NCBI GenBank assembly: GCA_004195045.1
Contig: SGBC01000002.1
Location: 437,435-501,434, forward strand
Direction of reading: 5' to 3'
Source of the DNA: Candidatus Acididesulfobacter guangdongensis
GTDB lineage: Bacteria; SZUA-79; Acidulodesulfobacterales; Acidulodesulfobacteraceae
DNA: 64,000 nt
The notes under the pieces are model-generated. The model had not been told where the DNA came from. It searched no databases and worked only from the letters and a program-made list of their open reading frames with translations. Position 1 is the first letter of the stretch; every line of letters begins with the position of its first letter. The position numbers and the translations under genes were made by a program. Shown here one piece after another: positions 40,187-63,998 of this stretch.

Positions 40187-40188
40187 TA

Positions 40189-40731: not shown

Positions 40732-40733
40732 TT

Positions 40734-41108: not shown

Positions 41109-41111
41109 AAA

Positions 41112-41267: not shown

Positions 41268-41275
41268 GAGGCGTT

Positions 41276-41656: not shown

Positions 41657-41658
41657 AA

Positions 41659-44425: not shown

Positions 44426-44438
44426 GGAGGGTGAAAAT

Positions 44439-44639: not shown

Positions 44640-44650
44640 GGCTAATTATT

Positions 44651-45730: not shown

Positions 45731-45738
45731 AAAAAGAT

Positions 45739-47076: not shown

Positions 47077-47085
47077 AGGATAAAT

Positions 47086-47703: not shown

Positions 47704-48842
47704 TATTTAAAGACAAAAAAATTAAAGAATTAGAAAAACAGCTCGAAAATCCTAATCTCACGGATGAAGACAGGACTGCATTAGAAAAACAGCTTGCAAC
47801 TCTTCAGTCGGAAAAATCTTCGCATTGGGGTTGGATTATAGTAATTGTAGCAATATTTTTGATTTTTATTTTTTCAAAGTTTATAGGTTTTTTTGTGAAC
47901 AGTAAAAAAATTACAGTTAAAAAAAATAATAAAAAAATAGAAAAACCTGTCCGTTATAACGCAAAAGATTTTATTACTGCTCCGACTAAAAAGAAACATC
48001 GTAAAGCCGCTTATTCAAACTTAGCAGGCGAGATAAATGTTTTAAAAAACAAATTGAAAAACCAAAGGGTTACGCGCTTTAATCCTTCAAATGCTGCAGG
48101 TGCGGTCAGCAGCGCAGCCGGTTCTCATTCTATTTCGGTATTTGTAAACCCGAAATATTTACAAAAAATTAAAGTTTCGGAAGGATATAAAAGCCCAGTT
48201 CAATTAGCAAATGCCGCATTAAAATATCCAGGAGCAAACGGCGTATATAATCCTTACGCAAAAACCGCTAACGGCGCAAGAACAAATATTTTAGTTCCTG
48301 AAGGCACGGTAGTTTCGGCATATACGAAATATAAACTCTACTCTTACAATACGAGCGTGCCGGTTATAGCGGTAGTTTCGGCTCCTTACAGTTTTAAAGG
48401 CAAGGTCGTCATACCGGCAGGATATGAATTTATGGGGTCGGTTGCAGGCCATACAAAATCAAGATTAGATATAAAGTTTACGCAGATAATAAATCCTACA
48501 AACGGGGAATCTTTAAGCGTAAATGCTGTTGCCGTTATGGAAAACGGTTCGGCCGGAATTACCGGTAATGCCCATTACCACGTAATTAAAAACGTTCTTG
48601 CGGGTATAGGTTCCGGAATTTTAGGCGCTGCAGCTATGTTTGCCGGAGGCGGTTCGGCAGTTAATTCGACCGGCGCTTATACTTATCAAGATACTTTACG
48701 TCAGAACGTAGCCCAAAACGAAATATCTTATGCTCAGAACAGTCTCAACAACGCTCAGCAGAGTGCAAACCAGGTAGTCATTACTTTACCGGCCAAGACG
48801 CCTATAAAAATAATGTTTTTAAAACCGCTTACGGGGAAATAA
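47700..48842 (+). CDS. VirB10/TrbI-like protein
   Basis: The 380 residues: coiled coil at the start, one membrane helix (GWIIVIVAIFLIFIFSKFIG), a Lys-rich linker, and a C-terminal beta-barrel domain with ILVPEGTVVSAYTKYKLYS, APYSFKGKVVIPAGYEFMGS and an antenna region (IKNVLAGIGSGILGAAAMF). This protein spans both membranes and forms the outer-membrane core ring with VirB7 and VirB9. Confidence 0.83.
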   Translation: MIFKDKKIKELEKQLENPNLTDEDRTALEKQLATLQSEKSSHWGWIIVIVAIFLIFIFSKFIGFFVNSKKITVKKNNKKIEKPVRYNAKDFITAPTKKKHRKAAYSNLAGEINVLKNKLKNQRVTRFNPSNAAGAVSSAAGSHSISVFVNPKYLQKIKVSEGYKSPVQLANAALKYPGANGVYNPYAKTANGARTNILVPEGTVVSAYTKYKLYSYNTSVPVIAVVSAPYSFKGKVVIPAGYEFMGSVAGHTKSRLDIKFTQIINPTNGESLSVNAVAVMENGSAGITGNAHYHVIKNVLAGIGSGILGAAAMFAGGGSAVNSTGAYTYQDTLRQNVAQNEISYAQNSLNNAQQSANQVVITLPAKTPIKIMFLKPLTGK

Positions 48843-48844
48843 TA

Positions 48845-49699
48845 ATGAGTTTAGAAAAAATCAATAAAATCAAAAAAGAACTGGACGATTTCTACGTCCA
48901 GCGCACCGAAACGATAAATATGATTTTATTAGCTATTTATTCAAGGAAAAATGCTTTTTTGATAGGCGAGCCAGGGCTTGCAAAAACCGATATTTTAAAA
49001 GCGTTTTCGGAATCGGTCGAAGGCTTTAAGTTTTTTGAATATCAAATGAGTTTTTCGACAGAGTTGAAGGATTTACTTTCTATGAATGTTCAGGGAGGCA
49101 TAGGCATAGACAACTGCCACATAGCCTTAATAGACGAGTTTTTTAAGGGAAACCCGTCTGTGTTAAACAGTCTTCTTGCGATTTTAAACGAAAAAATAAT
49201 ATATGTACCTGAAAAAAAAGTTATACCGATATTAACAGTTTTCGCGACGTCTAACGAAAAACCGGACGCAACTGAGGGAACATCTATGCTGGCGCTTTAC
49301 GACAGGTTCTTATTAAGGCAGGAAGTTATGCCTTTAAGAGATGAATCCGACTTTAAGAAACTTATGCGCATAAATAAACCCTTTGCTCCGTCTCCGGAAG
49401 CAATTTTAACTTTAGATGAACTTGAAAAAGATTATGAAGATATTCAAAAAGTTAGTATACCGGATGAAATAATTGATATTCTTTTTTCAATTAAAAAGGA
49501 AATACTTGTAAGGCAGGTTCACGTGAGCGACAGAAGGTTTAGAGATTTAGTAGCTATACTTAAAGTTTCCGCTTTTTTCAGGGGAGACAACGAGGTTAAA
49601 AAAGAAGATATTTATAACGTTAAATCAAGTCTATGGACTTACAGTTCTGATATAAAAACCGTCGACGTGGTTGTCAATAAAATATTACAAGCGATTTAA
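48845..49699 (+). CDS. MoxR/RavA-type AAA+ ATPase
   Basis: The 284 residues show Walker A GEPGLAKTD, Walker B ALIDEFFKGNPSVLNSLL, ILNEK, TSNEKP sensor 1 and a helical lid, like RavA/MoxR chaperone ATPases. These usually work with a von Willebrand A partner; none is encoded nearby. The gene is packed between virB10- and virB9-like genes (2 and 21 base gaps), so it belongs to the transfer system. It is not a usual T4SS component. It might supply a VirB11-like function, since no VirB11 is present, but the fold is different. Confidence 0.82.
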   Translation: MSLEKINKIKKELDDFYVQRTETINMILLAIYSRKNAFLIGEPGLAKTDILKAFSESVEGFKFFEYQMSFSTELKDLLSMNVQGGIGIDNCHIALIDEFFKGNPSVLNSLLAILNEKIIYVPEKKVIPILTVFATSNEKPDATEGTSMLALYDRFLLRQEVMPLRDESDFKKLMRINKPFAPSPEAILTLDELEKDYEDIQKVSIPDEIIDILFSIKKEILVRQVHVSDRRFRDLVAILKVSAFFRGDNEVKKEDIYNVKSSLWTYSSDIKTVDVVVNKILQAI

Positions 49700-49720
49700 A
49701 AAACAATAGAGGGAGCGATT

Positions 49721-50620
49721 ATGTTTAAAAAAATTGCATTTATGATTATATTAGCGATATCATTTTGGACGGCAAATGCCTTCTCGATGGGATATTCTAA
49801 TTTAAATCACTACAGTTATTACAGCCGTAAGAAGGTTCATAAGCTGACTATTAACAAGAACGTAGTTTATAAGCTTAATGTCGCTTACGGTTACGTTTCA
49901 GTCGTAACATTGCCGGTGATACCTTTATTCGTTACTATCGGCAATCCTTCTGACTTTCAATATAAGGTCTTGGGTCCGCAGATTTTCGTCCAAGCTCAGG
50001 CTTATAACAAAAAAGTTTCAACCAATATGGAAGTTTCAACCAAATACGGATTGATTAACATCGAAATTAAAATTACATCTAAAAAAGATATTGTCTTTAA
50101 TTTAGACTTGGCTAAACCAGGAAATGGTATATTTTACAAGAATTATTTAGAGCATAAACTTAATATTTTAAAGACAAAGCTTCAAAAAAAGTATTCGGCA
50201 AAATATCAAGGCCTTGTTGCAATGAAAAACAAATTGGCAAAGAATAAAGCCTATGTCGAGAAATTAATATTATCGATAAATAAAAAGACTATCAACGCTT
50301 CGGCGAATAAAAATAATGTATCTTTCACCATTATTTATAAATCTAAAATAGGCAACAAATATTACATTAAATATATGGTTTCGAACAGCACTAACAATTA
50401 TATCGTAGTTCATGATTTATATCTTTACGATGCAAATTCGTCATGGTACGGTTCTTCATCTAAAAAAGAGGTAAGAATATTAAATCCGGTTTCAAATTTA
50501 AAACTAATGCCGCGCGAAGTCTATAAGGGATATATCGTTTACGATAATAAAAATGCGAATGATGTTTCTGCACATCTATATTTAAAAGGAAAATTAATCA
50601 TTATTAGAGTACAAATATGA
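49721..50620 (+). CDS. VirB9/TraK-like outer-membrane core protein
   Basis: The 299 residues carry a signal peptide (ending ANAFS) then a beta-rich N-domain containing YGYVSVVTLPVIPLFVTIGN and TKYGLINIEIKI, like VirB9/TraK secretin-like proteins, and a C-terminal beta domain (YIVVHDLYLYD). It would form the outer-membrane ring with VirB7 and VirB10. The stop overlaps the next gene start by four bases. Confidence 0.7.
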   Translation: MFKKIAFMIILAISFWTANAFSMGYSNLNHYSYYSRKKVHKLTINKNVVYKLNVAYGYVSVVTLPVIPLFVTIGNPSDFQYKVLGPQIFVQAQAYNKKVSTNMEVSTKYGLINIEIKITSKKDIVFNLDLAKPGNGIFYKNYLEHKLNILKTKLQKKYSAKYQGLVAMKNKLAKNKAYVEKLILSINKKTINASANKNNVSFTIIYKSKIGNKYYIKYMVSNSTNNYIVVHDLYLYDANSSWYGSSSKKEVRILNPVSNLKLMPREVYKGYIVYDNKNANDVSAHLYLKGKLIIIRVQI

Positions 50621-51255
50621 AAACTAAAAAAAATATCATAATATCGCTGTTGTCTTTAATATTTTTGGTTTCTGCACTATCAGGCTGCGGGTATAATTCT
50701 TATTATGCAACTGGAGCGGCAGGGACTGGTTTAAGTTTAAATCAGGCATTAAGATTAAACAGGATTATGTTTAATTATTTAGATATTCCTGCTTTAAAAT
50801 ATTCTATTTTAACCCATCCTGCCAAACAGGAGATGGCTGATAAAAATTATTATCAGCCATCTCCTGTTATCAAACATTTAAGTGCAAATAAAGTCAAAAA
50901 AATGCGCGAAAACAAAGAGCAAAGAAACGGAGATAAGCAGAGCGGTGCTTATAAGATTAAAACAATCGGCAGTAAATTATTTATTCAAATATTTAGAAAA
51001 GGAACGTTTAATATCGATAAGTTGTTCAATATTAAAAAAATTACCATAAATGTTGAAAAAATAAAATTCGACAAAGGTTATGAAGTTGTAACGCTCTTAT
51101 TAAAAAATAACAAAGGAGAAGAAACGATAAGCGAAAATTTTAAATATTCTAACGCAGGAAAGGTATTTAAAATTAAAAAGTATGAAGTTATCGAAAATTT
51201 AACGGTTGCGCAAAAATATAAGAGGGGCATGACTTTATGGCTAAAATTCTCATAA
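50617..51255 (+). CDS. Lipoprotein of the T4SS operon
   Basis: The 212 residues have a signal peptide ending LSGC (lipobox), and a mature beta-rich C-terminal domain (TIGSKLFIQIFRKGTF onward). No family recognised. The coding sequence contains a long perfect hairpin (50825-50868). It overlaps the transglycosylase start by 19 bases. It may be an extra outer-membrane ring or pilus protein. Confidence 0.6.
   Translation: MKTKKNIIISLLSLIFLVSALSGCGYNSYYATGAAGTGLSLNQALRLNRIMFNYLDIPALKYSILTHPAKQEMADKNYYQPSPVIKHLSANKVKKMRENKEQRNGDKQSGAYKIKTIGSKLFIQIFRKGTFNIDKLFNIKKITINVEKIKFDKGYEVVTLLLKNNKGEETISENFKYSNAGKVFKIKKYEVIENLTVAQKYKRGMTLWLKFS
50825..50868. repeat. 19-base perfect inverted repeat inside the lipoprotein gene
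   Basis: Arms 50825-50843 and 50850-50868 are exact complements (AACAGGAGATGGCTGATAA and partner), with a 6-base loop AAATTA. No T-run follows. In mRNA it would be an exceptionally stable hairpin and could attenuate expression of genes downstream. Confidence 0.9.
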
Positions 51256-51674
51256 CGCTTATTATAAGCATATCGGTTTTAACTATAAAAACCGCCGCTT
51301 ACGGCTATTCTCACAACAGAATAATAAATGCCGTTGTAGAGTCTTCAAGGGAATTTAATATCCCGACAGGCCTCATCTTGTCCGTTATGCGAGAAGAAAG
51401 CGATTTTAATATTAACGCCGTTAGTCCTAAAGGTGCAGTAGGTTTAATGCAGCTTATGCCTTCAACTGCTGAAAGTATAGGCGTAAATCCTTACGATCCT
51501 GTTCAAAACGTGATAGGAGGCGTATATTATTTGAGATATTGCTTAAATTTAAAAGGCGGAAACGTCGCGCTTGCCCTTGCTTGTTATAACGCCGGACCAA
51601 ACGGCGGCGTACCGAGTTCTACTTTTCAATATATCAAAAACATAGCTACGTTTTATAGGGAGATATCAAGATGA
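51237..51674 (+). CDS. Lytic transglycosylase (VirB1-like)
   Basis: Opens peptidoglycan for assembly of the secretion machine. The 145 residues: signal peptide, then the SLT fold with MREESDFNINAVSPKGAVGLMQLMP (catalytic Glu in REES; GLMQLMP motif) and ALACYNAGPNG near the end. Periplasmic. Overlaps both neighbours. Confidence 0.9.
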   Translation: MAKILITLIISISVLTIKTAAYGYSHNRIINAVVESSREFNIPTGLILSVMREESDFNINAVSPKGAVGLMQLMPSTAESIGVNPYDPVQNVIGGVYYLRYCLNLKGGNVALALACYNAGPNGGVPSSTFQYIKNIATFYREISR

Positions 51675-52489
51675 CTAAAAAGAAGAAAAAAAAGAAACTG
51701 GAACCTGTTTCTCCGGCTTTAAATTTTGTCAAATTACTATTTTCTTTTATAGGCTGGCTTTTAATATTTGCGGCCGCAGGCGGATTATTATTTTTAGCGG
51801 TAAAACACGCTTTCGCCGCATCTTATAAAAACGGAGTCTGCACATTCAGTCGCCCGCTCGGCTATCGTTATTATAACAGGAGAACAGGACAGGGTTACGA
51901 TCCTTATTATAGCGCTTTTGTTAATAAGAATATTTTCAATGAATATTTTAGCGGCAACGCTTCTAATATGAATTTGGATAATGTAAATGTCATTAGCAAT
52001 AACGGCATATTTGTTTACAAAAATACTATGACGGCCGGTGGATATTCCGCTGTTTACGATTACGTATGGGAAAATAATTCCTGGGAATATACGGAGGATT
52101 TAGATATAGCCCAGGCTTCTTCATTGAACATTCAATACATGATTCCGGATGAGTTGGGGTTTGGACCGATAATTCCAATATGGAATAATAAAGATTATTA
52201 CGAGTGGTGGATTAATAACGCATTAAATTACTATCAGACACAGCAACCAGCATGGTTTAGTTATAACAGTCAAATTGCGGAAGGTTTTGACGCGTGGGAA
52301 TGCGAAAGGGCTTTTAGGGGTTATCCTATAACTCAAATAACATATACGAATAGAGAAGGCAGGGTTTACACAAGGAGCTTATTAACAGATAAATTTCCTA
52401 AAATTCAACCGTCTTCTGCCGGTTCCTGTCCTCCTCTGCCTATTTCTGAATTGTTCGGTTTTGCATGGTGCGTTAAGCATGGATTATAA
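51671..52489 (+). CDS. Single-pass membrane protein of unknown function
   Basis: The 272 residues: Lys-rich cytoplasmic start, one membrane helix (FIGWLLIFAAAGGLLFLAV), then a large Tyr/Asn-rich periplasmic region with paired Cys (NGVCTFS, WECERA, GSCPPLP, FAWCVKHG). No family recognised. It links the T4SS and pilus gene blocks. Its four Cys suggest disulfides. Confidence 0.55.
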   Translation: MTKKKKKKKLEPVSPALNFVKLLFSFIGWLLIFAAAGGLLFLAVKHAFAASYKNGVCTFSRPLGYRYYNRRTGQGYDPYYSAFVNKNIFNEYFSGNASNMNLDNVNVISNNGIFVYKNTMTAGGYSAVYDYVWENNSWEYTEDLDIAQASSLNIQYMIPDELGFGPIIPIWNNKDYYEWWINNALNYYQTQQPAWFSYNSQIAEGFDAWECERAFRGYPITQITYTNREGRVYTRSLLTDKFPKIQPSSAGSCPPLPISELFGFAWCVKHGL

Positions 52490-52499
52490 GGAGTTTAAA

Positions 52500-52874
52500 A
52501 TGCTTAGAATATTAACTATAGCGATTATGATTTTAAGTTTAATTTTAACGGCTGCAAACGCTTCGGCGTTTAAATTGCCGAAACTTAAAATTATTTACAT
52601 CAAACCACAGTCTTATTCTGCTCGCATAGTCGGCAAGACTAACGGTCTGCCGGTTTTAACGGTGGACTTCGAGGGTAGGCCTTTGTGGAAAGTCCTGCAG
52701 GACGTCTCGAACGATACCGGTTATGTTTTTACGACTAAAGGCGTAAACTTGGCAAAAAAAGTAAATTTAAAGGGCAGGTATAATTTTGCGGTCCTGCTCT
52801 CCAAATTGTTTAGCGGGAGAGGGGAAAATACAACGGTAAATTTAAAAACTAAGAGGGTGAGCGTATGGCGCTAA
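52500..52874 (+). CDS. Small secreted STN/secretin-N-like protein
   Basis: ATG at 52500 (AAGGAG upstream). 124 residues with signal peptide (LTAANASA) and the segment FEGRPLWKVLQDVSNDTGYV, the core of the STN/secretin short domain. Probably a periplasmic pilus-assembly factor (PilL/TraP-like role) helping the secretin. First gene of the pilus block. Ends overlapping the next start by ten bases. Confidence 0.6.
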   Translation: MLRILTIAIMILSLILTAANASAFKLPKLKIIYIKPQSYSARIVGKTNGLPVLTVDFEGRPLWKVLQDVSNDTGYVFTTKGVNLAKKVNLKGRYNFAVLLSKLFSGRGENTTVNLKTKRVSVWR

Positions 52875-53911
52875 TTTATATAGAACAGTCCGGAATTAAA
52901 TTTGAACTTAAAAACGGCGAGAGAACCGTATCCGCTCAAGGAGTAGAGGGACTATCCGGACTAGTTTACGTAACCGGAAGCGAAATTAAAAGATACCCGA
53001 AGAATGCCGAAAAAATAGCAAGAAGGGTAAAGAATAAGTCTTATATAATAGACAACGAGTTTGTTTATTATTATAAAGGCGAAGATATCGACAATTTTAA
53101 AGACTGCCTGCTTTCGCCATATCAGATTCTCGTCAATAAATTTTTAGAACAAAAAAATATATCTGGGAATATATTGTTTATTGACGGCGATAAAGACGTG
53201 GTAATTGTTTCTCTAATTAAAGACGGTGAATTCAAGGAGCTTTTAATAAGCAATGCGTCTTTATTTAATGAGACGTTATCTTCTATCAATAAGAAGTATC
53301 TTCAAAAAGATTTGAAGCTTGATATCGTCGTTATAAACGATGAGTTTTATAAAACCGCTTTTAAAAATACTCCCGTTACAGTTTTAAGTCCTACGGAAAT
53401 ACTCGAATATGCTCAAGATTTTCAAGCGCCGGTATTTAGAAGAATTGAAGATATTAAAAAGAAAATTCAGAAAGAAAAAGATAAAAAACTTAATATGATT
53501 TTGGTTTTTGCGGTTATTATCTTTATTTTAAATTTAGTGGTTTATTTTGCTATTAAAAATGCTGTAAATTCTGTTTCTGTTATGAATAATAGTCTGGTTG
53601 TAAAAAATGGAGTTTTAAAACAGAGGCTTAATTTTGAAATAGAAAAAAAGTTTTTATCGTTTACGAGAAAAAATATGCCTATAAGTTTAAAAAAGACATT
53701 ATTGAAGATAGTCAACGTTAAAAATATAAAAATAAATTCTATTAATGCGACTAATTCTAATTTTAACATAAAGGGAGAATTTCTTGGCGGCTATAGAAAT
53801 TTCGTAAAAGGCTATAACAAACTAAAAAGAATAATGGATAGCGATGCGGTAAATTACGTCGTGTCCGCCGGCGGAAAGGCTTCTTTTGTAATTAAAGGAG
53901 AAATTAGATGA
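52865..53911 (+). CDS. PilM/PilN-like inner-membrane pilus assembly protein
   Basis: The 348 residues: an N-terminal cytoplasmic half of about 210 residues, a membrane helix (MILVFAVIIFILNLVVYFAI, about 217-236), then a periplasmic helix and small alpha-beta domain. This is the arrangement of a PilM-like actin-fold part joined to PilN, or of GspL. It would connect the ATPase to the envelope platform. Named by architecture only. Confidence 0.6.
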   Translation: MALIYIEQSGIKFELKNGERTVSAQGVEGLSGLVYVTGSEIKRYPKNAEKIARRVKNKSYIIDNEFVYYYKGEDIDNFKDCLLSPYQILVNKFLEQKNISGNILFIDGDKDVVIVSLIKDGEFKELLISNASLFNETLSSINKKYLQKDLKLDIVVINDEFYKTAFKNTPVTVLSPTEILEYAQDFQAPVFRRIEDIKKKIQKEKDKKLNMILVFAVIIFILNLVVYFAIKNAVNSVSVMNNSLVVKNGVLKQRLNFEIEKKFLSFTRKNMPISLKKTLLKIVNVKNIKINSINATNSNFNIKGEFLGGYRNFVKGYNKLKRIMDSDAVNYVVSAGGKASFVIKGEIR

Positions 53912-54489
53912 TTAAAATAATAATCTCTGCGCTTTTAATAGTTTTAAGCGTTTTTATATATGCAAAGTTTTCAAAGCCTTTAATGAGCGTATATCATTTA
54001 ACTAAGTCCGAAAATACTGCTTTAGCGGGAAAGACCTTAAATTATGAAAGGCAAATTTCTATATTAAAAAATATCAAGAAAGTAAAAATTATTTTACGAA
54101 AGCAAAAGACTTCTACATATATGTTTACGCTTTTGTCGTTCGTAAATTATTTAAAAAGTAAAGGCTTTTCGGTAAAGCTTAAACTTAATAAATTAATGCA
54201 GACTAAACCTGTAATACATACTATCCCTAATCCTCAAGTCATAAATAAGCGCGTACAAGTTAAACCGGTTAGTTTGGGAGGATTTAGCCCTTATGAAACT
54301 CGGACTAAGTTTGCGGGGGTTAAAAAGATAAATATCGTATTAAGTTTTAAAGGTTATTACGGGCTTGTCCCGATGCTTACCGTAATGGAAAAATTGTATG
54401 TTTTGTTTCCTATAAAATTCGTTAATTTTACAATGAGTAAAAAAAGTACCGTAATTAATTTTAATCTATATAGTTTTAAGGGGGTTTGA
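53908..54489 (+). CDS. PilO-like pilus assembly protein
   Basis: 193 residues: N-terminal membrane helix, coiled-coil region, and a C-terminal alpha-beta fold (IVLSFKGYYGLVPMLTVME, FPIKFVNFTM) resembling PilO/GspM. Start overlaps the PilM/N-like stop by four bases (ATGA). Works as partner of the preceding protein. Confidence 0.65.
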   Translation: MIKIIISALLIVLSVFIYAKFSKPLMSVYHLTKSENTALAGKTLNYERQISILKNIKKVKIILRKQKTSTYMFTLLSFVNYLKSKGFSVKLKLNKLMQTKPVIHTIPNPQVINKRVQVKPVSLGGFSPYETRTKFAGVKKINIVLSFKGYYGLVPMLTVMEKLYVLFPIKFVNFTMSKKSTVINFNLYSFKGV

Positions 54490-54490
54490 A

Positions 54491-55252
54491 ATGGATATAA
54501 ACGATATAATCGAAGAAGGTCAGGAAGAACGCGGGCAAAGAGAACCGGAAGGGATTAAACCTAAGAGAAAAAATAAAATTAAGTTCAATAAGAAATTATT
54601 ATTGATCGTTTCCGTTATTGTATTGATAGGAGGCGCGGCTGCATATTTTTTATTATTTAAGAGCAGTCGTCCTATTATACCTGTAACGGGCAGAATAGTA
54701 ACTCCTCCAGTAAATCAGAGTTTTTTGTTTAATAAAACTTTAAATAATAAAATACAGAATAAAATATCTAATCCTTCTTTAAAAAGTACGGTAGAGAGTA
54801 ATGCTTCAGTAACAGATTTACCTATAAAAAATAAAACCGCACAACCTGTTAAAGGTAAGGCTGCCTCCAAAGTTAAAAAAGCCAATAATACGTTAAACGA
54901 CCTTTTTACCGTTAAATATAAACATAAGGCGAAAAAAACTAATATGCAGGGAGTACCGAATATGCCTCCTAACGCAAATGTTCCTAATGTTCCGGCTATA
55001 CCTTTTAATCAGAATTTGCCTAATTTCAATTTAAAGGGCATGGCTTCAAAAATTAAGAATATGCAAGGTTTATCAAGCGGAAGCAGTTTTAACGTAAGCG
55101 GATATTCAGGCGGTTACGTGATAGCAGAGTGCGGTAAAAGCACTAAATATTTAAAAGCCGGTCAGAGCGCCTGCGGCTATACCTTGTTAAAGGCAAACTC
55201 GAACGATGCTACTTTTTCGCATAACGGCAAGTTTAAAAAGATTTCTTATTAA
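54491..55252 (+). CDS. PilP-like pilus assembly protein
   Basis: 253 residues: an acidic/basic cytoplasmic start, one membrane helix (LLLIVSVIVLIGGAAAYFLL), a long low-complexity linker rich in Lys, Asn and Pro, and a C-terminal domain of about 50 residues with paired Cys (AECGKST, QSACGY). This matches PilP of type IVb pili, which bridges inner-membrane complex and secretin. Confidence 0.62.
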   Translation: MDINDIIEEGQEERGQREPEGIKPKRKNKIKFNKKLLLIVSVIVLIGGAAAYFLLFKSSRPIIPVTGRIVTPPVNQSFLFNKTLNNKIQNKISNPSLKSTVESNASVTDLPIKNKTAQPVKGKAASKVKKANNTLNDLFTVKYKHKAKKTNMQGVPNMPPNANVPNVPAIPFNQNLPNFNLKGMASKIKNMQGLSSGSSFNVSGYSGGYVIAECGKSTKYLKAGQSACGYTLLKANSNDATFSHNGKFKKISY

Positions 55253-55261
55253 GGGGGTTTT

Positions 55262-56758
55262 ATGAAAAAAATATTAATTACTTTATTATTAATTTTATTT
55301 AGCGTTTCTCCTGCTTTTGCCGGGACGGTTACGATAATAAATCCGGTTTTACATATTATTAAAAAACCAGTTCCTGAAGCTTTAAGGCAAAAAACTTCTT
55401 TAGAAGGAAATTTAACTATTAATGAAGCTTTGTCTTTACTTACAAGGGCAACGGGAATACCGATTATTATAATTCATTCAAGTTTTATAAATAATAACAA
55501 AAACAGTTATTACTACATCCACAAACCTCTTTATATGATATTAAATGCCGTCATTAAAGATAACGGTTATGTTTATAAATATAAGAACGGTCAGATTAAG
55601 GTTTACGGCGAAATAGCCGAGACCTTTAATTTGCCGGTTTTTAATATAGATAACGCTTTTCAGGCTACGACAGGAGTCAGCAATAATAATAATTTAACGA
55701 ACGGACAAAACGGGGTTAACGGTACCGCAAATACGGCGACTACACAGGCTGCTTCCGCTTCTCCCGTTTCCAGTCAGCAGACTCTCCAGACCGGCACGGC
55801 TAATAATCCCGGCGGGCAGATTACGAGTTCGATGTCTCTTACAAAAACTGCCGTTCATTATATAACGCAGATGTTAAAACCGTTGGTGTCCAAAAAAGGC
55901 GTATTCGGCGTAAATGCCATGCAGGGAATAGTTTACGTTAAAGATAAACCGTCAAACGTTTTTGCAGTGGCTAAATGGGTTAAAAAGATAAGGAAAAATC
56001 TTGCGGAAGCCGTTTGGCTTAAGGTGCAGATTTTAGACGTTACTTTAAATAATTCTACGCAAGTAGGCATTAATTGGAACGCCGTTTTTAGCAACGCTTT
56101 TAAATCTAATCCGGCGGGACTATCCGCCGTTACGATAGGCGCTAATCTTGCTTCTGGGGCGGGTATCGCTTCGGGAGCTCCTTCTATCGAGTTTGCTAAT
56201 AGCGCCGGAACTAATTCGGCAATACTAGAGGCATTAAAAACGCAGGGGACGGTAGATATATTGTCCGAACCCACTTTGATAGTTCCTAACGGTGAGACGG
56301 GAGTAATTAACAGCAGTTCGATATCTAATTATATTCAGACGGTAGAAAACATTTCTACAGGTCTTACGTCGTCTCAGACTTATCCGGTAATAGCGCAGGT
56401 ATCCGCAGGGTTATCGACCGCTTTTACGCCGCATATAAATAAGAAAAAAGGCATGATAACCGTCGTTATAAATTTTTTAGATAACAATATTACGGGATAT
56501 AACGATTTTACCGTATCCGGTACTAATTTCGACGAGCCGATAATTCAGTCGAAAACGTTGTCCGACATTATAAGAGTTCGTAATAATCATACAGTTATTA
56601 TGGGCGGGATTATTACGACTAATAAAAATAAACAGAATTACGGAGTTCCGCTCTTAAGCGATATTCCGGTATTAGGACTTTTATTCGACGGAGTAAATAA
56701 TACTTATGAAAAAGACGACCTTATCATGATGATAACGCCGAAAATAATTAAATATTAG
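55262..56758 (+). CDS. Type IVb pilus secretin (PilN/MshL-like)
   Basis: Forms the outer-membrane pore for pilus exit. The 498 residues: signal peptide (ending AFAG), STN-like region (NLTINEALSLLTRATGIP), N1 domain (GVFGVNAMQGIVYVKDKPSN), and the secretin core with TLIVPNGETG-VINSSS and VPLLSDIPVLGLLF then a KDDLIMMITPKI end, the secretin signature. No lipobox, so a pilotin or none may be needed. Confidence 0.9.
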   Translation: MKKILITLLLILFSVSPAFAGTVTIINPVLHIIKKPVPEALRQKTSLEGNLTINEALSLLTRATGIPIIIIHSSFINNNKNSYYYIHKPLYMILNAVIKDNGYVYKYKNGQIKVYGEIAETFNLPVFNIDNAFQATTGVSNNNNLTNGQNGVNGTANTATTQAASASPVSSQQTLQTGTANNPGGQITSSMSLTKTAVHYITQMLKPLVSKKGVFGVNAMQGIVYVKDKPSNVFAVAKWVKKIRKNLAEAVWLKVQILDVTLNNSTQVGINWNAVFSNAFKSNPAGLSAVTIGANLASGAGIASGAPSIEFANSAGTNSAILEALKTQGTVDILSEPTLIVPNGETGVINSSSISNYIQTVENISTGLTSSQTYPVIAQVSAGLSTAFTPHINKKKGMITVVINFLDNNITGYNDFTVSGTNFDEPIIQSKTLSDIIRVRNNHTVIMGGIITTNKNKQNYGVPLLSDIPVLGLLFDGVNNTYEKDDLIMMITPKIIKY

Positions 56759-56766
56759 GAGGAATT

Positions 56767-57324
56767 ATGGAAAGAAAAATTAATAATCAAGATGGTTTTA
56801 CATTAATAGAGATTCTAATTGCCCTTGTCCTTATCGGAGTTATGGCAGCGATCGGAGTTAGCGTATATACGCATGTTAATTCTACCGCCGCTACCGGCGG
56901 TATAGTCAGCAACATTCAGAAATTTGAAAGTGTTGCCGATCAGTATGCATCTATGAACTCAGGTACTTATACCGGCATGGATGCTCAGGCTTTGCAGAGC
57001 GATGCGTTATTACCTAACGGTTGGACTGTAGAAGGTGGCGGTGTTGAAGCCGTTCCTCCGAATACGTCTACCGTTGCAGGATATTTTATAACGACAGGGG
57101 CTTTAGGAACAGGAAATTCTGCTTATGATATCGGTTTTTCCGGTACGGGTAATGGAGTAACCGATATCATGGTTCATTCAATATGCCTTGATTTTGAGAA
57201 TAAGATTGATGCATTTGAATATAACGGAGGTGTTACCACGGTTACTACGGGAGGAACTAATTGTAACGTCATACCTACAGATAATAAAGCTATAACTGGC
57301 GCATTTTGGCTGGGGTTCGAATAA
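56767..57324 (+). CDS. Type IV major-pilin-like protein
   Basis: 185 residues: class III leader ending DG|FTLIE, then the hydrophobic spine ILIALVLIGVMAAIGVSVYT and a globular C-terminus with two Cys (SICLDF, GTNCNVI) forming the D-loop disulfide. Probably the main pilin (PilS-like). Needs a prepilin peptidase, not found in this window. Its stop shares a base with the ATPase start. Confidence 0.85.
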   Translation: MERKINNQDGFTLIEILIALVLIGVMAAIGVSVYTHVNSTAATGGIVSNIQKFESVADQYASMNSGTYTGMDAQALQSDALLPNGWTVEGGGVEAVPPNTSTVAGYFITTGALGTGNSAYDIGFSGTGNGVTDIMVHSICLDFENKIDAFEYNGGVTTVTTGGTNCNVIPTDNKAITGAFWLGFE

Positions 57325-58934
57325 TGGAGAAATTAGGCGAGATTTTAGTAAAAAAGGGGCTTATTACGGAAGACGTCGTTAAAGACGTCTTGACGGAGCA
57401 GGAGCTTTCTTTAAAAAAGTTCGGCGAGATTTTAATAGAAAAATCCCTTATTGAAGAGACTGTTCTTATTAAAATTATAGCCGAGCAGTCCGGTTATGGT
57501 TTTATAGATGATTTTACGGGAGCGGAGCTTATTAAAGAAAAGCCGGATGAATTTTATTGGAAGAATTGCTGCGCTTTAATTAAGACCGCTTCCGGTACTA
57601 AATTCGTATTTAATACTAATAACCATGAAATCAATTCTTATATAACGATTTTGGCTTTAAAGAATATCGAGATAGTTTTAAGTCCAAAAGAACGCATTTA
57701 TTCGTTTCTATCAGAAAAGACGGAACTTAAGACTATCATAGAAGAAGAAAATGCGGGTAAAGAAATCGACAATGCTTTAGAGATAGCTATTCTTAAGAAG
57801 TCGTCTAATATCAGGATTAAAAAGAGCCTTAATTCTTATTTAATTTTAGTAGATACCGACCTTGGAGTCGAAATAATTAAAGCTTTTCCCGTTAGTATTG
57901 GAGAAAGGCTCATTAATATAATAGCGGAAAGGTGCAAGGCTCATTTAAAACCCCGCAGGTCTATGGATGCAAAATTCAGCTATGAGTCTGTTTTTAGTAA
58001 GAAAAAAATAGATATAAGGGTAGAGTTTTTACCGGTAGCGTCTCAAACGGACGAAAAAGACTATTTCGAAGCCGTTATGAGGCTTCACGGGCTTAATTCG
58101 ATACTTAGCTTAGAAGCTTTAGGTTTCGATGAAGAAGAAAGGTTGGTTTTAAGCGAAATTTTAACTTACGGTTCCGGTTTGGTTTTATCCGCCGGACCTA
58201 CGGGGGCGGGTAAATCTACTACTTTTTATGCGATATTAAAGGAACTCGCCAAAAAGAGACTCCCTATCTTGACTATCGAAGACCCTGTAGAAATTAAACT
58301 AAACGAAATAAATATAACGCAAATGTCCGTCAATGACGAATTCCGTTACAATAACGCTTTGGTCGCAATGTTAAGGTGCGAACCTAAGATAATTTTAGTC
58401 GGCGAAATCAGGGACGAAGAAACGGCAAGAGCGGTCATAAAAGCGGCGCAGACAGGACATTTGGTATTATCTACCATCCACACGCAGAGCGCCATTAATA
58501 TAGTATCCAGATTAAAAGGCATGGGCATACCTCAAGACGAGTTTTTAGAAGTAATAAAATTTGCGACTAGCCAAAGACTTTATCTTCCGCTATGTCCTAA
58601 GTGCAGAGAAAAAAAAGAGATAAGTTCGTTTACTAATAAAACTTGGCTAAAGTCCCTAAAAAGGCTCGGCATTTATGAAGTTGTAAATAAAGAAGACGAT
58701 ACCCTGCCTGCATACGCTTACGTTCCGGTAAGAGGACAAAAATGCGACGTTTGTTTTGGAAACGGCTATTTATCTAAGAAGGCTATCATAGAAATATTGC
58801 CGTTTAGAGAAGATACGATAGCAGCTATTCAGGCCGGCGAAAAAGTTAAATATAGGACTTTAAAGGATAAAGCCTTAAAACTTTTTAAAGAAGGAAAAAT
58901 AGATGCGGGGCAGCTTTTTAATATTGCGGGGTAA
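57324..58934 (+). CDS. Type IV pilus assembly ATPase (PilB/GspE/PilQ-type)
   Basis: ATG at 57324 used; the frame extends 18 bases upstream but inside the pilin. 536 residues: N-terminal GspE-N domain, Walker A GPTGAGKSTT (around 290), Asp box TIEDPVEI, Walker B ILVGEIRDEET, His box STIHTQSA, and a zinc site CPKC ... CDVC. Powers pilus extension from the cytoplasm. No retraction ATPase (PilT) gene is present. Confidence 0.92.
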   Translation: MEKLGEILVKKGLITEDVVKDVLTEQELSLKKFGEILIEKSLIEETVLIKIIAEQSGYGFIDDFTGAELIKEKPDEFYWKNCCALIKTASGTKFVFNTNNHEINSYITILALKNIEIVLSPKERIYSFLSEKTELKTIIEEENAGKEIDNALEIAILKKSSNIRIKKSLNSYLILVDTDLGVEIIKAFPVSIGERLINIIAERCKAHLKPRRSMDAKFSYESVFSKKKIDIRVEFLPVASQTDEKDYFEAVMRLHGLNSILSLEALGFDEEERLVLSEILTYGSGLVLSAGPTGAGKSTTFYAILKELAKKRLPILTIEDPVEIKLNEINITQMSVNDEFRYNNALVAMLRCEPKIILVGEIRDEETARAVIKAAQTGHLVLSTIHTQSAINIVSRLKGMGIPQDEFLEVIKFATSQRLYLPLCPKCREKKEISSFTNKTWLKSLKRLGIYEVVNKEDDTLPAYAYVPVRGQKCDVCFGNGYLSKKAIIEILPFREDTIAAIQAGEKVKYRTLKDKALKLFKEGKIDAGQLFNIAG

Positions 58935-58936
58935 AT

Positions 58937-60193
58937 ATGGAATATTTGGTATTATCTGGATTTAAACTAGTAAAAGAAACCGGAGAGACGAAAGCCGAAG
59001 TCGAAAATAAATTATTGGATCAAGGTATAGTTCCGTCTTTAATTATTAGGAATTTTTTTAAAAGGGAAAGAATTTTATCTAATAAAGAAGCTGCAAATTT
59101 CTTTGAATCCCTGACTTTTTTATTTAGGTCGACGGGTTCGATGACAAAATCTTTAAAGTTTTTAGAAGATAGATATGATAAGACGAAAGTAAAATTTCAT
59201 TATAATAATAAACTAAAAGATTTTATCAGTACCGAATTCAGGAAATATTTAACCGAAAAGTATAAAAAAAGATTAGAACTTGCGAGAAATTTACGTAAGA
59301 AATTGGAATCAGGATTTGCGTTATCTGATGTATTAAAAGAGTATAAGTTCGACGAGATAGTCGTAGGGCTTGCCAATTCGGCAGAGACGGAGACGGGCGA
59401 TTGGGTTACCGTCTTTAAGAAGATAGCCGATTATTATACGACTAAAGATAAAAATTCTAAAAGCTTAATAAAGGAATTAGCTTATCCTATGGTTTTACTT
59501 CTTGCGGCTTTTAGCGGATTTCTAGTGTTCATATTTTATATAATTCCGGCTTTCGATAAGTTTTTTAAAAGTTTCCCGAATGTGCCGGCGGCAACGAAAG
59601 CTACTCTCGGTTTTTTTATGAACATAAATCATTATTTTGCTGTATATGGTTTGACTATTTTAATGATAGTCGGGATTTTAGCTTATATCTGGATTTCTAA
59701 TTATAAAGACGTCCGGGGTAAATTTTATAAAAGGCTTGCAGCGACTCCCGGCATTGGACATTTTTTTAGATTTTCTTATTTAAAGTGGTATTTGTATGAA
59801 TATAGTGTTTTATTATCCGCCGGAAAAACGCATGCCTCTATAGTTAAATATTTATTAGATAATGCGAAGAATGATTTTTTTAAAGATAAATTTACCGTCA
59901 TTTATTCTTACCTGCTTAACGGTTCTACTTTAACGGAAGGCCTCAATTCCTCGGATTTATTAAGACCTGAAGATTTGGATAGGATTTCGTCAGCTGAAGT
60001 CGGCGGACGTATCGACGAGACGATGTTGTTAATTTCAGAAGAATATGAAGAAGTAGTAAATTTACAGATGAAACTTATCGGTAAGATTGCTAATTATGTA
60101 ATGCTCGTCGTGATAGCCGGATTTATCGTATTTATGTTTGCCGGAATTTATGCGCCCATGATGCAGGGTTTAATGGGCATGGCGGGGGGTTAA
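58937..60193 (+). CDS. Inner-membrane platform protein (PilC/GspF)
   Basis: 418 residues with two GspF repeats, each with NFFESLTFLFR-type or YEYSVLLSAGKTHASIVKYL helices, and three membrane segments (about 190-215, 235-255, 385-410). It anchors the ATPase to the pilus. The last base of its stop is the first base of the next ATG. Confidence 0.88.
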   Translation: MEYLVLSGFKLVKETGETKAEVENKLLDQGIVPSLIIRNFFKRERILSNKEAANFFESLTFLFRSTGSMTKSLKFLEDRYDKTKVKFHYNNKLKDFISTEFRKYLTEKYKKRLELARNLRKKLESGFALSDVLKEYKFDEIVVGLANSAETETGDWVTVFKKIADYYTTKDKNSKSLIKELAYPMVLLLAAFSGFLVFIFYIIPAFDKFFKSFPNVPAATKATLGFFMNINHYFAVYGLTILMIVGILAYIWISNYKDVRGKFYKRLAATPGIGHFFRFSYLKWYLYEYSVLLSAGKTHASIVKYLLDNAKNDFFKDKFTVIYSYLLNGSTLTEGLNSSDLLRPEDLDRISSAEVGGRIDETMLLISEEYEEVVNLQMKLIGKIANYVMLVVIAGFIVFMFAGIYAPMMQGLMGMAGG

Positions 60194-60501
60194 TGTTATC
60201 ATTTATAATTAATAATCAACTGTATTTTATAATAGCAATAATTTTATTGTTTATTTTCTTTGCTATTAAAGTTTATCGTTATGAAACGGAAGAAGAAAAT
60301 ACCGGTAACGAAGTAAATATTTTAGGTTTCGGTAAAGCGGAAGGGCTTTATTTGGTTAAAGTGGGTAAATATTATCTTGTGGCGGGAATGAAAATTAAAA
60401 GTAAGCACAAGGCTATAAAAAAGTTTATAGCGTTAGTCGAAAAAAACGGCTTCGTGCCGCCTAAGTCGTATTTTAAAATGGTAAAGGTTAAGAATTTATG
60501 A
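60193..60501 (+). CDS. Small membrane protein with the KAEGLYL domain, copy 1
   Basis: 102 residues: one N-terminal membrane helix (LYFIIAIILLFIFFAIKVY) followed by a cytoplasmic-type domain of about 60 residues (LGFGKAEGLYLV..YYLVAGMKIKSKHKAIKKF..PPKSYFKMVK). A paralogue is at 61796. I know no named family. It lies between PilC-like and GGDEF genes, so it may link c-di-GMP signalling to the pilus. Confidence 0.6.
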   Translation: MLSFIINNQLYFIIAIILLFIFFAIKVYRYETEEENTGNEVNILGFGKAEGLYLVKVGKYYLVAGMKIKSKHKAIKKFIALVEKNGFVPPKSYFKMVKVKNL

Positions 60502-61151
60502 TTTTAATAATTAATTTAATTATAGCAGGATATTTTTTGTATTTGAGCATTTATGCGGGTACTATAATAATTTATATTTTTCTTTTTTTAAGTTTAGTTA
60601 ATATAGTTTACGCGTATAACGTACTTTCCGAAAACAAAAGATTAAAAAAAGAAAAAGATAGTCAATTTTTAAAAGTTACGGATTTAACGCAGGACAATTT
60701 TAACGACCCTCTTACGGGGCTATATAATAGGCGTTATTTTGATTTGGTTCTTTCTAAATTTATTAAGAAAGCGGCAAAATACAATATTAAATTTTCGGTT
60801 CTTATGCTCGATATCGACCATTTTAAGAAATTTAACGATACTTACGGCCACGACGTCGGGGATAAGGTTTTAAAGATTGTTTCTTCTACCGTTAAAGAAC
60901 ATATTAGAGGCAATCAGGATATTTTATTCCGTTACGGCGGGGAAGAATTTGTAATTATTTCAATGGACGATTTAACTGGCGCTATTACTTTGGCTAAAAA
61001 AATAAATTCATTGGAATTTAAAGGTTCACCCGAAAAAATTACGGTTTCTATCGGTATAAGTTCATATAAACAAGGCGAAGACGTCGTTAAATTAGCTGAT
61101 GACAATTTATATAAAGCAAAAGAAGCCGGAAGGAACTGCTTTAAATATTAA
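60498..61151 (+). CDS. Membrane GGDEF diguanylate cyclase of the pilus operon
   Basis: 217 residues: two short N-terminal membrane helices, then a GGDEF domain with FNDPLTGLYNRRYFD, LMLDIDHFKKFNDTYGHDVGD and active-site GGEEF (residues 147-151). The I-site position reads GNQD rather than RxxD, so product inhibition is probably lost. It should synthesise c-di-GMP close to the pilus machine. Overlaps the previous gene by four bases. Confidence 0.88.
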   Translation: MILIINLIIAGYFLYLSIYAGTIIIYIFLFLSLVNIVYAYNVLSENKRLKKEKDSQFLKVTDLTQDNFNDPLTGLYNRRYFDLVLSKFIKKAAKYNIKFSVLMLDIDHFKKFNDTYGHDVGDKVLKIVSSTVKEHIRGNQDILFRYGGEEFVIISMDDLTGAITLAKKINSLEFKGSPEKITVSIGISSYKQGEDVVKLADDNLYKAKEAGRNCFKY

Positions 61152-61166
61152 TAAGAAGGGGCTTAC

Positions 61167-61796
61167 ATGATAAAAGATGTTTTAGATATAAGCTTAGACA
61201 TTAAAGCGGATGAGTTCGTTAAATTCTATTTAAAGCTCGTGAATCGTAATTTAAATCACTTAGGGACGCATTCGGAAAATACGGCTTCGGTTTCCTTATC
61301 TTTAGCCAAAAGCATGGGATATAAAGCGGCAGATATTAAGCTCCTAAAATACGGAGCGCTTCTCCACGATATTGGGAAGCTTTTTACTCCGGCTGAGATT
61401 TTAAATTCTTCGAGAGCTTTGACCGGTATAGAGTTTGAAATTATAAAAACGCATACGCTTTTCGGATATGAAGTTTTAGATAGCTTTAAATCTTTTCCGG
61501 AAGAGATAAAATATTTTGCGGTTAAGCACCATTATCGGCATGGTTTCGGTTATCCTAAACCTTTAATATACGATAACGGCGTGGATCAGACTTTGATAGA
61601 TATTCTAACCGTAGCGGACTCCTTTTCGGCCATTATGGAGCCGAGAGTCTATAAGAATAATGTAACCCCTGAAGGAACTTTTGAAATAATGAGCGATGAA
61701 ACGAACGAGAAAAATAAAGGATTAAATAAGGACGTTATGGCTCATTTAAAGGGTTTAATATGCACTGGTAAAATAAATTTAAAGGGTTTTTTCTAA
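61167..61796 (+). CDS. HD-GYP-like phosphodiesterase domain protein
   Basis: 209 residues: GTHSENTASVSLSLAKSMGY, LLHDIGKLFTPAEIL (HDIGK), KTHTLFGYEVL, VKHHYRHGFGYP (HHxR-xGxGYP type, a variant of HHExxDGxGYP) and DILTVADSFSAIM. This is the HD-GYP c-di-GMP phosphodiesterase pattern, without a sensor domain. It directly follows the cyclase, giving a make-and-break pair. The changed residues in the GYP motif may alter activity. Confidence 0.82.
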   Translation: MIKDVLDISLDIKADEFVKFYLKLVNRNLNHLGTHSENTASVSLSLAKSMGYKAADIKLLKYGALLHDIGKLFTPAEILNSSRALTGIEFEIIKTHTLFGYEVLDSFKSFPEEIKYFAVKHHYRHGFGYPKPLIYDNGVDQTLIDILTVADSFSAIMEPRVYKNNVTPEGTFEIMSDETNEKNKGLNKDVMAHLKGLICTGKINLKGFF

Positions 61797-62275
61797 TGGC
61801 AAACGTTATTTTATTTTTACTTTTAATCTCCGGAGTGGTTTTAATTTTATACGGTCTGCGCGAATATATAGACGCCGGAAATATCTATAATACTTTTGCC
61901 GTAAAAAATAATATCATAGGCTACGGCAAAGCTGAAGGTCTTTATTTAATCGCAACGGAAAATTATTACCTCGTCGCCGGCCGTAAAGTCAGAAGCAAGA
62001 AAAAAGCCATTAAGGAGTTCTTCGAACTTATTAATAAAAATGAGCTTCTGCCTCCGGATATGTATTTTAAAGTTATCAGGGCAAAAGGCACGACTTTAAA
62101 TAAAGAAATAGAACAGGAAGGAAGGGATTTTGCGGAAAGTCTAATTAAGCGTGCGCAAAAAGAACGGGAAAAGGAATTGGAAAAAGAGTTGGAGATTAAA
62201 AACAATGAAAATATTATAAATAATCAGAAATTTATCCAAACAGAACAAAAAACGGTAAAGGTTAAAAGAAGATGA
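61796..62275 (+). CDS. Small membrane protein with the KAEGLYL domain, copy 2
   Basis: 159 residues: one membrane helix (VILFLLLISGVVLILYGL), the same domain as copy 1 (GYGKAEGLYLIATENYYLVAGRKVRSKKKAI..PPDMYFKVIRAK), plus a charged coiled-coil tail of about 55 residues. It starts on the last base of the HD-GYP gene and is followed by the pilin-like gene. Unknown function; see copy 1. Confidence 0.6.
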   Translation: MANVILFLLLISGVVLILYGLREYIDAGNIYNTFAVKNNIIGYGKAEGLYLIATENYYLVAGRKVRSKKKAIKEFFELINKNELLPPDMYFKVIRAKGTTLNKEIEQEGRDFAESLIKRAQKEREKELEKELEIKNNENIINNQKFIQTEQKTVKVKRR

Positions 62276-62832
62276 AACAGGGCGGGTTTACTTTAATAGA
62301 ACTTATAATAGCTATTGTAATAAGCGGTATTTTAACCGCTATAAGTATTCCTATTGCTTATAATTATATTCAGTCTCAAAAAGCTATTAAAACCGTTAAA
62401 GAAATGAAATCTATAGCTCAGGCGGAAAATTTATATTATCAGAGTAATACCGTTCCCATGACTTGTTCGGTAACGGTAAGCGGAACGAATTATAATGAAA
62501 CCGAAAATTATCATATATATACGTCATCTTTCAGTAATTTAACAAATATGGGAATGCTCGGCGTTTTATCCAGTGGTGTTAATCCTTTCGGCCAAGATTA
62601 TTATTTAGAACCGGTTTATTCTAATATATCGGTTAATTCTAATAATTACTGCGTCCGGGAATCAGGAATTTTAGTTTACACGTATATTCCCATTCAATAT
62701 AAAGGGGCAGTCGGCTTAATAGCCGGCGCATTTGATATGGGGGCTAATGGTAATATGGAAGAAGTTGGTTATTATCTAACGCCTAATGAAAATAATTCGG
62801 AACAAGATTTTGTTTTAAAATATAATTGGTAG
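62272..62832 (+). CDS. Type IV pilin-like protein
   Basis: 186 residues with leader MKQGG|FTLIE and spine LIIAIVISGILTAISIPIAY; the globular part has Cys in MTCSVT and NYCVRES, a possible disulfide. Minor pilin or pseudopilin. Starts four bases before the previous stop. Confidence 0.82.
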   Translation: MKQGGFTLIELIIAIVISGILTAISIPIAYNYIQSQKAIKTVKEMKSIAQAENLYYQSNTVPMTCSVTVSGTNYNETENYHIYTSSFSNLTNMGMLGVLSSGVNPFGQDYYLEPVYSNISVNSNNYCVRESGILVYTYIPIQYKGAVGLIAGAFDMGANGNMEEVGYYLTPNENNSEQDFVLKYNW

Positions 62833-62840
62833 GAGGATAT

Positions 62841-63998
62841 ATGTTTAAGGTACTTAAAAATAACGACGGTTTTTCAGGGCTAATCGGAATATTGATAGCG
62901 ATAGTTATTATCGGCATAATGTCGGCGATGATGCTTCCGACGTTTACCGCAAGAATGGATTATAAGCAGGCGCAATACGTCGCCGGCGTAACCAAGACTA
63001 TCGAGAACGCCGAGAACGCGTATATGGCGAAAAACGGCTCGTTTGCGAATTTAGTGACGCTGTCGCAAAACGGTTATCTTTCTCCTCAGTTTTTACAGTC
63101 ATTACAACCGGCGAACAACCCCGGCGGCCCGTATCCGCAACCGAACTGGATTACTCTTGAGCTGGCGAAACAGACGGTAAATTTGTGTATAGATAACAAT
63201 AGCGTATGCCCCGATGAACCGTCTGGAAATAATTATTTTATCGGCTTATATTCCGTTCCAGGTAATTATGCAAATTATATCGAGCATGAACTTCCAGGCT
63301 CAGGCATAGGAAGCCAGGGCGGGGGGCTTGAGTATGTGGCTTATGCGGCGCCGGTACCGAGCGCCCCGCCGATGAATACATCTGCAACCATAATTTGGAG
63401 AGTACCGGGGTATTATACTTGGACTGTTCCTTCTAATATTACAACATTACTAGTTAGCCTCGCTGGCGGCGGCGGCGGAGGAGGAGGAGGAGGATATGGT
63501 ATTAATTGTTCTGGGGCAGGTGGCAGTGGCGGTGGCGGCGGTGCTTCCGCCATTCTTATAAACAATAATTTAGTGGCAATTGCTGGTGGCGGCAATAGTG
63601 GTAATGGAGGCGATAGTTATGTTGGTGGTAGTGGGTATTTTGGTTATCCCGGTAATAATTATTATACATCTCTCTCTGTTTCGACTGGCGATAAATTATC
63701 ACTGTATGTAGCATCTGGAGGCGAAGGCGGCGGCGGTTGGGGCAACATTGTAGGCCTCGGAGAGGGTGGATGGGGGTATATCCCAGGCAATAGTGGTAAT
63801 GGTGGCAATAGTTGTGCTGGTGGATCAAGTAGTAGTGGCGGAAATAATGGTACTCCTTACGAAGGTGGGAATGGTGGATATGGATATGTCGGCGGCGGAG
63901 GATATGGCGGTAATCCTGGTACTTATGGTTCCGGTGGCACTTCTGCTGGTAATGGCGGTAACGGCGGTAATGGTTATATTATTATAAGTTACAATTAA
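62841..63998 (+). CDS. Minor pilin with glycine-rich adhesin-like C-terminus (PilV/PilX-like)
   Basis: ATG at 62841 (AGGAGG site); 385 residues. Leader NNDG|FSGLIG, hydrophobic spine, pilin region to about 160, then YYTWTVPSNITTLLVSLAGG and about 180 residues of Gly/Asn/Ser repeats ending in a short IIISYN. Glu5 of the mature pilin is absent, as in tip-located minor pilins. The Gly-rich module resembles the domain seen in tail-fibre-like proteins. Likely the pilus tip adhesin that decides the mating partner. The gene ends two bases before the window edge. Confidence 0.75.
   Translation: MFKVLKNNDGFSGLIGILIAIVIIGIMSAMMLPTFTARMDYKQAQYVAGVTKTIENAENAYMAKNGSFANLVTLSQNGYLSPQFLQSLQPANNPGGPYPQPNWITLELAKQTVNLCIDNNSVCPDEPSGNNYFIGLYSVPGNYANYIEHELPGSGIGSQGGGLEYVAYAAPVPSAPPMNTSATIIWRVPGYYTWTVPSNITTLLVSLAGGGGGGGGGGYGINCSGAGGSGGGGGASAILINNNLVAIAGGGNSGNGGDSYVGGSGYFGYPGNNYYTSLSVSTGDKLSLYVASGGEGGGGWGNIVGLGEGGWGYIPGNSGNGGNSCAGGSSSSGGNNGTPYEGGNGGYGYVGGGGYGGNPGTYGSGGTSAGNGGNGGNGYIIISYN

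Follow-up and report, generated by a model that had tools for sequence, protein, structure and literature searches.

A stretch of 64,000 nucleotides (nt) from Candidatus Acididesulfobacter guangdongensis (assembly GCA_004195045.1, contig SGBC01000002.1, forward-strand positions 437,435 to 501,434; hereafter the window) carries a conjugative element with a type IV pilus (T4P) operon, and this operon includes genes for a GGDEF protein and an HD-GYP-like protein flanked by two related small membrane proteins. Judging from the sequence, we consider these genes to be probably a local cyclic di-GMP (c-di-GMP) control module for the element's pilus motor, and give this reading a probability of about 0.6. 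Directly established are the genes, their spacing and domains, selection on the coding sequences and a pattern of divergence consistent with joint exchange of module and pilus machine.

The gene order is pilN-, pilO- and pilP-like genes, secretin, prepilin, ATPase, platform protein, KAEG1 (first small membrane protein), GGDEF, HD, KAEG2 (second small membrane protein), prepilin 2 and tip. From position 51671 to the tip gene, every gene has the same direction, and neighbouring genes overlap or lie no more than 15 nt apart. Promoters and terminators were predicted no more often than in shuffled sequence, so the operon structure is deduced from gene spacing only. A first-pass annotation of the window had described, at 60193-62275 in a pilus operon, two enzymes side by side between two copies of a small membrane protein, and our analysis agrees with it on each of these points; the four open reading frames (ORFs) lie exactly at the stated coordinates and are tightly packed.

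Predicted enzymes of the module

The gene at 60498-61151 (+ strand) encodes a 217-amino-acid (aa) GGDEF protein that is probably a c-di-GMP-making enzyme, with profile matches to PF00990 (E = 3.7e-41) and TIGR00254 (1.2e-46) and an intact GGEEF active site (RYGGEEF). It has no sensor domain. A hydrophobic N-terminal stretch of ~44 residues (1-44) fits a two-helix membrane hairpin. When aligned with PleD, the protein has RGNQD, one residue longer, where PleD has RAID, and hence no canonical RxxD inhibitory site (I-site), as the first-pass annotation had noted; the orthologue at locus C15 of a related genome, G022, has RDKD there. Such a site is frequent in GGDEF cyclases and does not define them. 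The hairpin leaves almost no extracytoplasmic loop, so the input to the cyclase would have to come from membrane or cytoplasmic partners, for instance the platform protein or KAEG1 and KAEG2.

Next to the cyclase, the gene at 61167-61796 (+) encodes a 209-aa stand-alone HD-GYP-like protein (HDIGK, HHYRHGFGYP) that matches PF13487 (HD_5; 5.8e-15) and PF01966. Its best sequence match among solved structures is PmGH (4mcw, 9e-13). A predicted model (predicted local distance difference test, pLDDT, 77) aligned first to HD-GYP structures (DvhD 9rbz, Z 17.6; PmGH, Z 16.0; PA4781, Z 15.2), with Z ~10 for more distant HD families. The HHExxDGxGYP signature is incomplete, reading HHYRHGFGYP in the window and HHYRNGFGYP in the related genomes G004 and G022, and its loop is one residue shorter in all three orthologues; as the full signature is absent, we file the protein as HD-GYP-like.

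Active-site residues were mapped by pairwise alignment with PmGH, extended without gaps at the N-terminus. Seven of the eight PmGH metal ligands are kept (H35, H67, D68, H96, H121, H122 and D151 in the window protein), and the eighth, E185, is replaced by H31. K225, Y285, R314 and K317 of PmGH have equivalents in K71, Y129, R160 and K163, whereas D183 and D308 correspond to L29 and S154. In PmGH, E185A merely lowers activity, and D183A and D308A act like the loss of metal ligands and abolish it; the E185 position also varies or is missing in the Y/F subfamily (PMC4159591). The window protein shares the (predicted) fold and most active-site residues of PmGH, DvhD and PA4781 and differs from them in being a stand-alone domain, in its shorter loop and in lacking the equivalents of D183, E185 and D308.

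These substitutions, the reduced HHYR[HN]GFGYP signature and the presence of a cyclic GMP-AMP (cGAMP) phosphodiesterase, V-cGAP3 (5z7c), among the matches could also indicate that c-di-GMP hydrolysis is not the function of the HD protein, which would instead have a binding or scaffold role or another substrate (such as 3'3'-cGAMP or pGpG); this would reduce the circuit to cyclase and receptor. We regard this as improbable given the retained ligands and the four further conserved residues, the absence of E185 from the Y/F subfamily as well, and the strong purifying selection described below. Phosphodiesterase activity towards c-di-GMP is the probable, sequence-predicted function.

A candidate receptor in the pilus ATPase

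Upstream of the module, 57306-58934 (+) encodes an MshE/PilB-type pilus extension ATPase with an N-terminal MshEN domain (aa 9-61), a domain that the first-pass annotation had left unnamed. The ATPase matched NF053729, the MshE-related c-di-GMP-binding domain, at 48.5 bits (cut-off 38), and also the solved PilF GSPII-B (8pdk, 2e-6) and MshE (5htl) domains. From these matches, it is likely to be the receptor of the circuit.

The domain contains two motifs of 24 residues each, KLGEILVKKGLITEDVVKDVLTEQ and KFGEILIEKSLIEETVLIKIIAEQ, separated by a 5-residue spacer, and both keep the terminal Gln and fit the relaxed pattern of PMC5013675. Measured against the strict consensus (R/K/L)LGxx..G..L...L..Q, motif 1 fits except for V at position 17, and motif 2 deviates at F2 (KF), S10 (Ser for Gly) and I21 (Ile for Leu). 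The Lys at the first position is compatible with binding, because PilF GSPII-B, with Lys and Leu at the first motif positions, binds c-di-GMP at 6 nM, and Lys1 occurs in high-affinity binders (PMC11731258).

All five module-bearing ATPases retain the second c-di-GMP-contacting Gln, at the end of motif 2, whereas each of the 15 module-free ATPases of the sister group has another residue there. In the pilus ATPase of the host chromosome, next to which no module was detected, both Gln are also present, so the pattern rests on few independent events and is suggestive only. A single origin of the module was not recovered on the ATPase tree, in which branches are long and two changes are needed (gain then loss, or two gains). 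One gain of the module followed by joint loss of module and Gln would fit the tree, and so would two gains. We rejected arrival of the MshEN domain together with the module, since the domain is also found in module-free ATPases.

Small membrane proteins flanking the enzymes

The two enzyme genes lie between KAEG1 (60193-60501, +, 102 aa), which overlaps the pilR stop by 1 nt and encodes one predicted transmembrane helix and a conserved domain (GxGKAEGLYL...YYLVAGxKxxS), and KAEG2 (61796-62275, +, 159 aa), a second small membrane protein that is homologous to the first and has an extra charged C-terminal tail. The two proteins share 43% identity across 93 residues, and the E value of 6e-19 places this resemblance beyond chance. 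Neither matched a Pfam or NCBIfam family. KAEG proteins occurred in 6 of 386 genomes searched, each time at a pilus locus of this kind, and none was found outside the host family in the viral contigs, plasmids or other genomes searched. The predicted structure is weak (pLDDT 64, predicted template modelling score 0.41) and too poor for a fold search.

In G004, KAEG is joined in frame to a prepilin (L004:11229-12071; RVKNINNKG^FTLFELL). A GTG codon at this junction could serve as an internal start.

Relatives, selection and apparent exchange of the locus

Near-identical modules were present in two metagenome-assembled genomes, G005, at 97.7% nt identity across 3.6 kb, and G027, at 97.3% across 7.8 kb. 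G027 belongs to another genus, and its rpoB region is only 72.8% identical; the 97.3% identity of its pilus segment therefore indicates recent transfer, unless the contig was misbinned. The G027 element has its platform gene (pilR) split into two ORFs (L003:5043-6298) and its cyclase gene intact. Between near-identical elements, the ratio of nonsynonymous to synonymous substitution rates was 0.04-0.10 for the GGDEF gene and 0.03-0.05 for the HD gene; both enzymes are under strong purifying selection.

More distant relatives differ in arrangement. In G004, the pilus operon is 60% identical, and the GGDEF and HD genes follow the tip gene and adjoin a tyrosine integrase. Locus G022:C15 has a collinear type IV secretion system (T4SS) and pilus operon, with GGDEF, KAEG and HD between the platform protein and prepilin 2. 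Two further pilus loci had no T4SS genes in the stretch read, one with GGDEF and KAEG (G022:C9) and one with KAEG and a different, canonical HD-GYP protein (G012:C14). Of the 17 GGDEF and 6 HD proteins that the G022 cyclase and HD protein matched in the genome, the window proteins ranked first, and on this best-match evidence the window enzymes have orthologues in deeply diverged pilus loci.

Identities along the locus point to exchange of a unit. Compared with G004, the GGDEF (65%) and HD (71%) proteins are more conserved than the platform, ATPase and secretin (53-61%). Between the window and G022:C15, T4SS proteins are mostly 60-87% identical (two are at 38 and 45%), pilin 2 is 67% and the tip 58%, whereas pilN through HD/KAEG reach only 28-47%. 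The secretin, ATPase, platform, GGDEF and KAEG proteins of G022:C15 are 51-65% identical to those of G022:C9 in the same genome. These values are most simply read as replacement of machine and module in one block, with pilin 2, tip and T4SS left in place. No HD counterpart lies beside G022:C9, so the history of the HD gene may differ from that of the rest of the block.

Proposed circuit

In the local circuit that we favour, the membrane cyclase would produce c-di-GMP close to the base of the pilus, the HD-GYP-like enzyme would break it down, and the upstream ATPase of the same operon would sense it via MshEN, a higher local level turning pilus extension on as in MshE of Vibrio cholerae. Here we infer catalysis, binding, locality, the direction of the effect, the role of KAEG and the use of the pilus in mating. 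The first-pass annotation had suggested a local circuit that is rarely seen on conjugative elements. Its circuit gained support from the enzyme pair within a pilus operon, purifying selection, apparent co-travel with the machine and the adjacent MshEN ATPase; its rarity claim did not hold up, as discussed below.

Several observations weigh against local control. The host genome has 22 GGDEF matches and several further HD-GYP-like proteins, so a private c-di-GMP pool is not a given. The content of the module varies, with no adjacent HD gene at G022:C9 and no GGDEF gene at G012:C14. The MshEN domain predates the module, and the chromosomal ATPase keeps both contacting Gln without one. To these are added the three departures of motif 2 from the strict consensus and the loss of the D183 and D308 equivalents from the HD protein.

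The first of these points is central to a different account, in which the enzymes act on the host-wide c-di-GMP pool, favouring attached life and mating, and operon position sets only the timing of expression. Many other host GGDEF proteins would share this one pool, GGDEF genes are common on plasmids, and the SXT/R391 genes dgcK and dgcL and the island-encoded Dgc137 alter host biofilm and motility (PMC10672970). We nevertheless hold it to be quite unlikely, as the pilus is indicated by the matching HD-GYP-like protein, by a predicted receptor in the ATPase of this operon and by the divergence of module and machine as a single block, as well as by the presence of GGDEF and KAEG at the G022:C9 pilus locus, without T4SS genes nearby. 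A more elaborate form of local control, an insulated circuit, would have the cyclase docked on the platform, KAEG as a new adaptor family relaying the state of the pilus to cyclase and HD protein, the set swapped as a block between elements and other pilus loci, and transfer of the element gated by c-di-GMP; this form we consider unlikely.

If local control is correct, a mobile element would run its own second-messenger switch for an organelle that may find partners, independently of host signalling. The compact, co-exchanged set of synthesis, breakdown and motor receptor would offer a model for local c-di-GMP signalling amid ~20 cyclases and would allow a possible gating of conjugation by c-di-GMP to be tested directly.

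Pilus operon and conjugative element

The T4P set (secretin, extension ATPase, platform protein and N_methyl prepilins) is complete in one locus by Pfam profiles. Besides the ATPase, it includes pilN-, pilO- and pilP-like alignment genes (52865-55252, +), assigned by position and by homology to their counterparts at related loci; an MshL-type secretin (55262-56758, +; PF00263, TIGR02519) that is closest to the MSHA (mannose-sensitive haemagglutinin)-type model in the profile search; prepilin 1 (56767-57324, +; PF07963); and the PilC/GspF-type inner-membrane platform protein, pilR (58937-60193, +; PF00482, 4e-24). Downstream of the module are prepilin 2 (62272-62832, +; PF07963) and a pilin-like tip protein with a glycine-rich C-terminus (62826-63998, +). 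Elements that are otherwise near-identical have different C-terminal halves in their tip proteins (window 62826-63998 (+) versus L005:3076-3948), which suggests that tip ends are exchanged, as in shufflon-type adhesins.

Profile searches recovered the three components by which we recognise a conjugative element, in line with the conjugative setting that the first-pass annotation had assumed: a MobF/TrwC relaxase-helicase (18248-21196, -; NF041492, PF08751), a TraD/TrwB-type coupling protein (15404-17269, -; PF10412, 4.8e-69) and a VirB4/TraC-type T4SS. The last is an F-type operon (40183-52489, +) identified by profile matches including TraC (41936-44425) and a TrbI-like protein (47700-48842), and it is collinear in G022:C15. 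It lies directly upstream of the pilus genes in the same direction, and relaxase and coupling protein are at 15-21 kb on the opposite strand. Window and contig end at the same position, which leaves the element's right end out of view; in G004, a tyrosine integrase adjoins the module.

This setting bears on what the pilus, which the first-pass annotation had taken for a mating pilus, is for. It could be an adhesin or DNA-uptake cargo, with the module governing attachment and not mating; we see this as possible, if short of an even chance. The machine-plus-KAEG loci G022:C9 and G012:C14, read without T4SS genes, and the MSHA-like secretin speak for it. Yet in the window and in G022:C15 the pilus genes form an uninterrupted continuation of the T4SS genes on one strand, and pilin 2 and tip have remained associated with the T4SS through a change of machine, as expected of a recipient-recognising pilus. 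A cargo pilus is compatible with local control, so our confidences in these readings overlap.

Other genes were noted in the window. A second VirB4/TrbE-like ATPase (7342-9819, -) is distinct from TraC at 41936, a Cas12f1-like/TnpB nuclease-domain protein (PF07282; 26297-27826, -) lies within the element region, and a MoxR-type AAA ATPase (48845-49699, +) lies within the T4SS operon and is 80% identical in the related element G022:C15. A TraC-type T4SS ATPase ~49% identical to that of the window was found in nearly every host-family genome searched (G000:C3:372057-374588; G001-G018); apparently, an F-type T4SS belongs to the core chromosome of the host family in addition to the mobile system.

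Comparison with known systems

It seems unusual for a single pilus operon to encode a cyclase, a phosphodiesterase and a receptor together, and we found no description in the literature of a cyclase, an HD-GYP-like protein and an MshEN motor in one mobile-element T4P operon, together with a family-restricted small membrane protein. The thin T4P of IncI1/R64 is encoded, as in the window, by an operon (secretin, ATPase, platform, prepilins) beside a conjugation system, and to our knowledge this operon has no c-di-GMP enzymes.

Cyclases as such are not rare on conjugative elements, contrary to the first-pass annotation. In PLSDB, GGDEF homologues are encoded by at least 2029 plasmids predicted to be conjugative, and the predicted conjugative plasmid pTK9001 has a GGDEF gene ~3 kb from a pilus-type ATPase gene. 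SXT/R391 integrative and conjugative elements (ICEs) carry the cyclase genes dgcK and dgcL; DgcK and DgcL resemble the window cyclase in being encoded by a conjugative element and are described as cargo acting on biofilm and motility; the portions consulted mention neither an HD-GYP partner nor a place in a pilus operon (PMC10672970).

The MSHA pilus of V. cholerae shares with the window an MshEN-type extension ATPase and an MSHA-type secretin, and there c-di-GMP binding turns extension on (PMC7096442, PMC5013675). Its cyclases CdgH, CdgK, CdgL and CdgD are encoded apart from the pilus genes, whereas cyclase, HD-GYP-like protein and ATPase of the window lie in one mobile-element operon. Acidithiobacillus ICEs bring together GGDEF-EAL, PilZ, T4P and conjugation genes (PMC6416229, Table 3). 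Among them, ICEAcaTY.2 and ICEAfe2 are like the window in that a single ICE combines c-di-GMP enzymes, a receptor (there PilZ) and genes for T4P or conjugation, a set that has been put forward as a control module (PMC6416229, Table 3); they have GGDEF-EAL and PilZ, not described inside a pilus operon, whereas the window has separate GGDEF and HD-GYP-like proteins and an MshEN ATPase.

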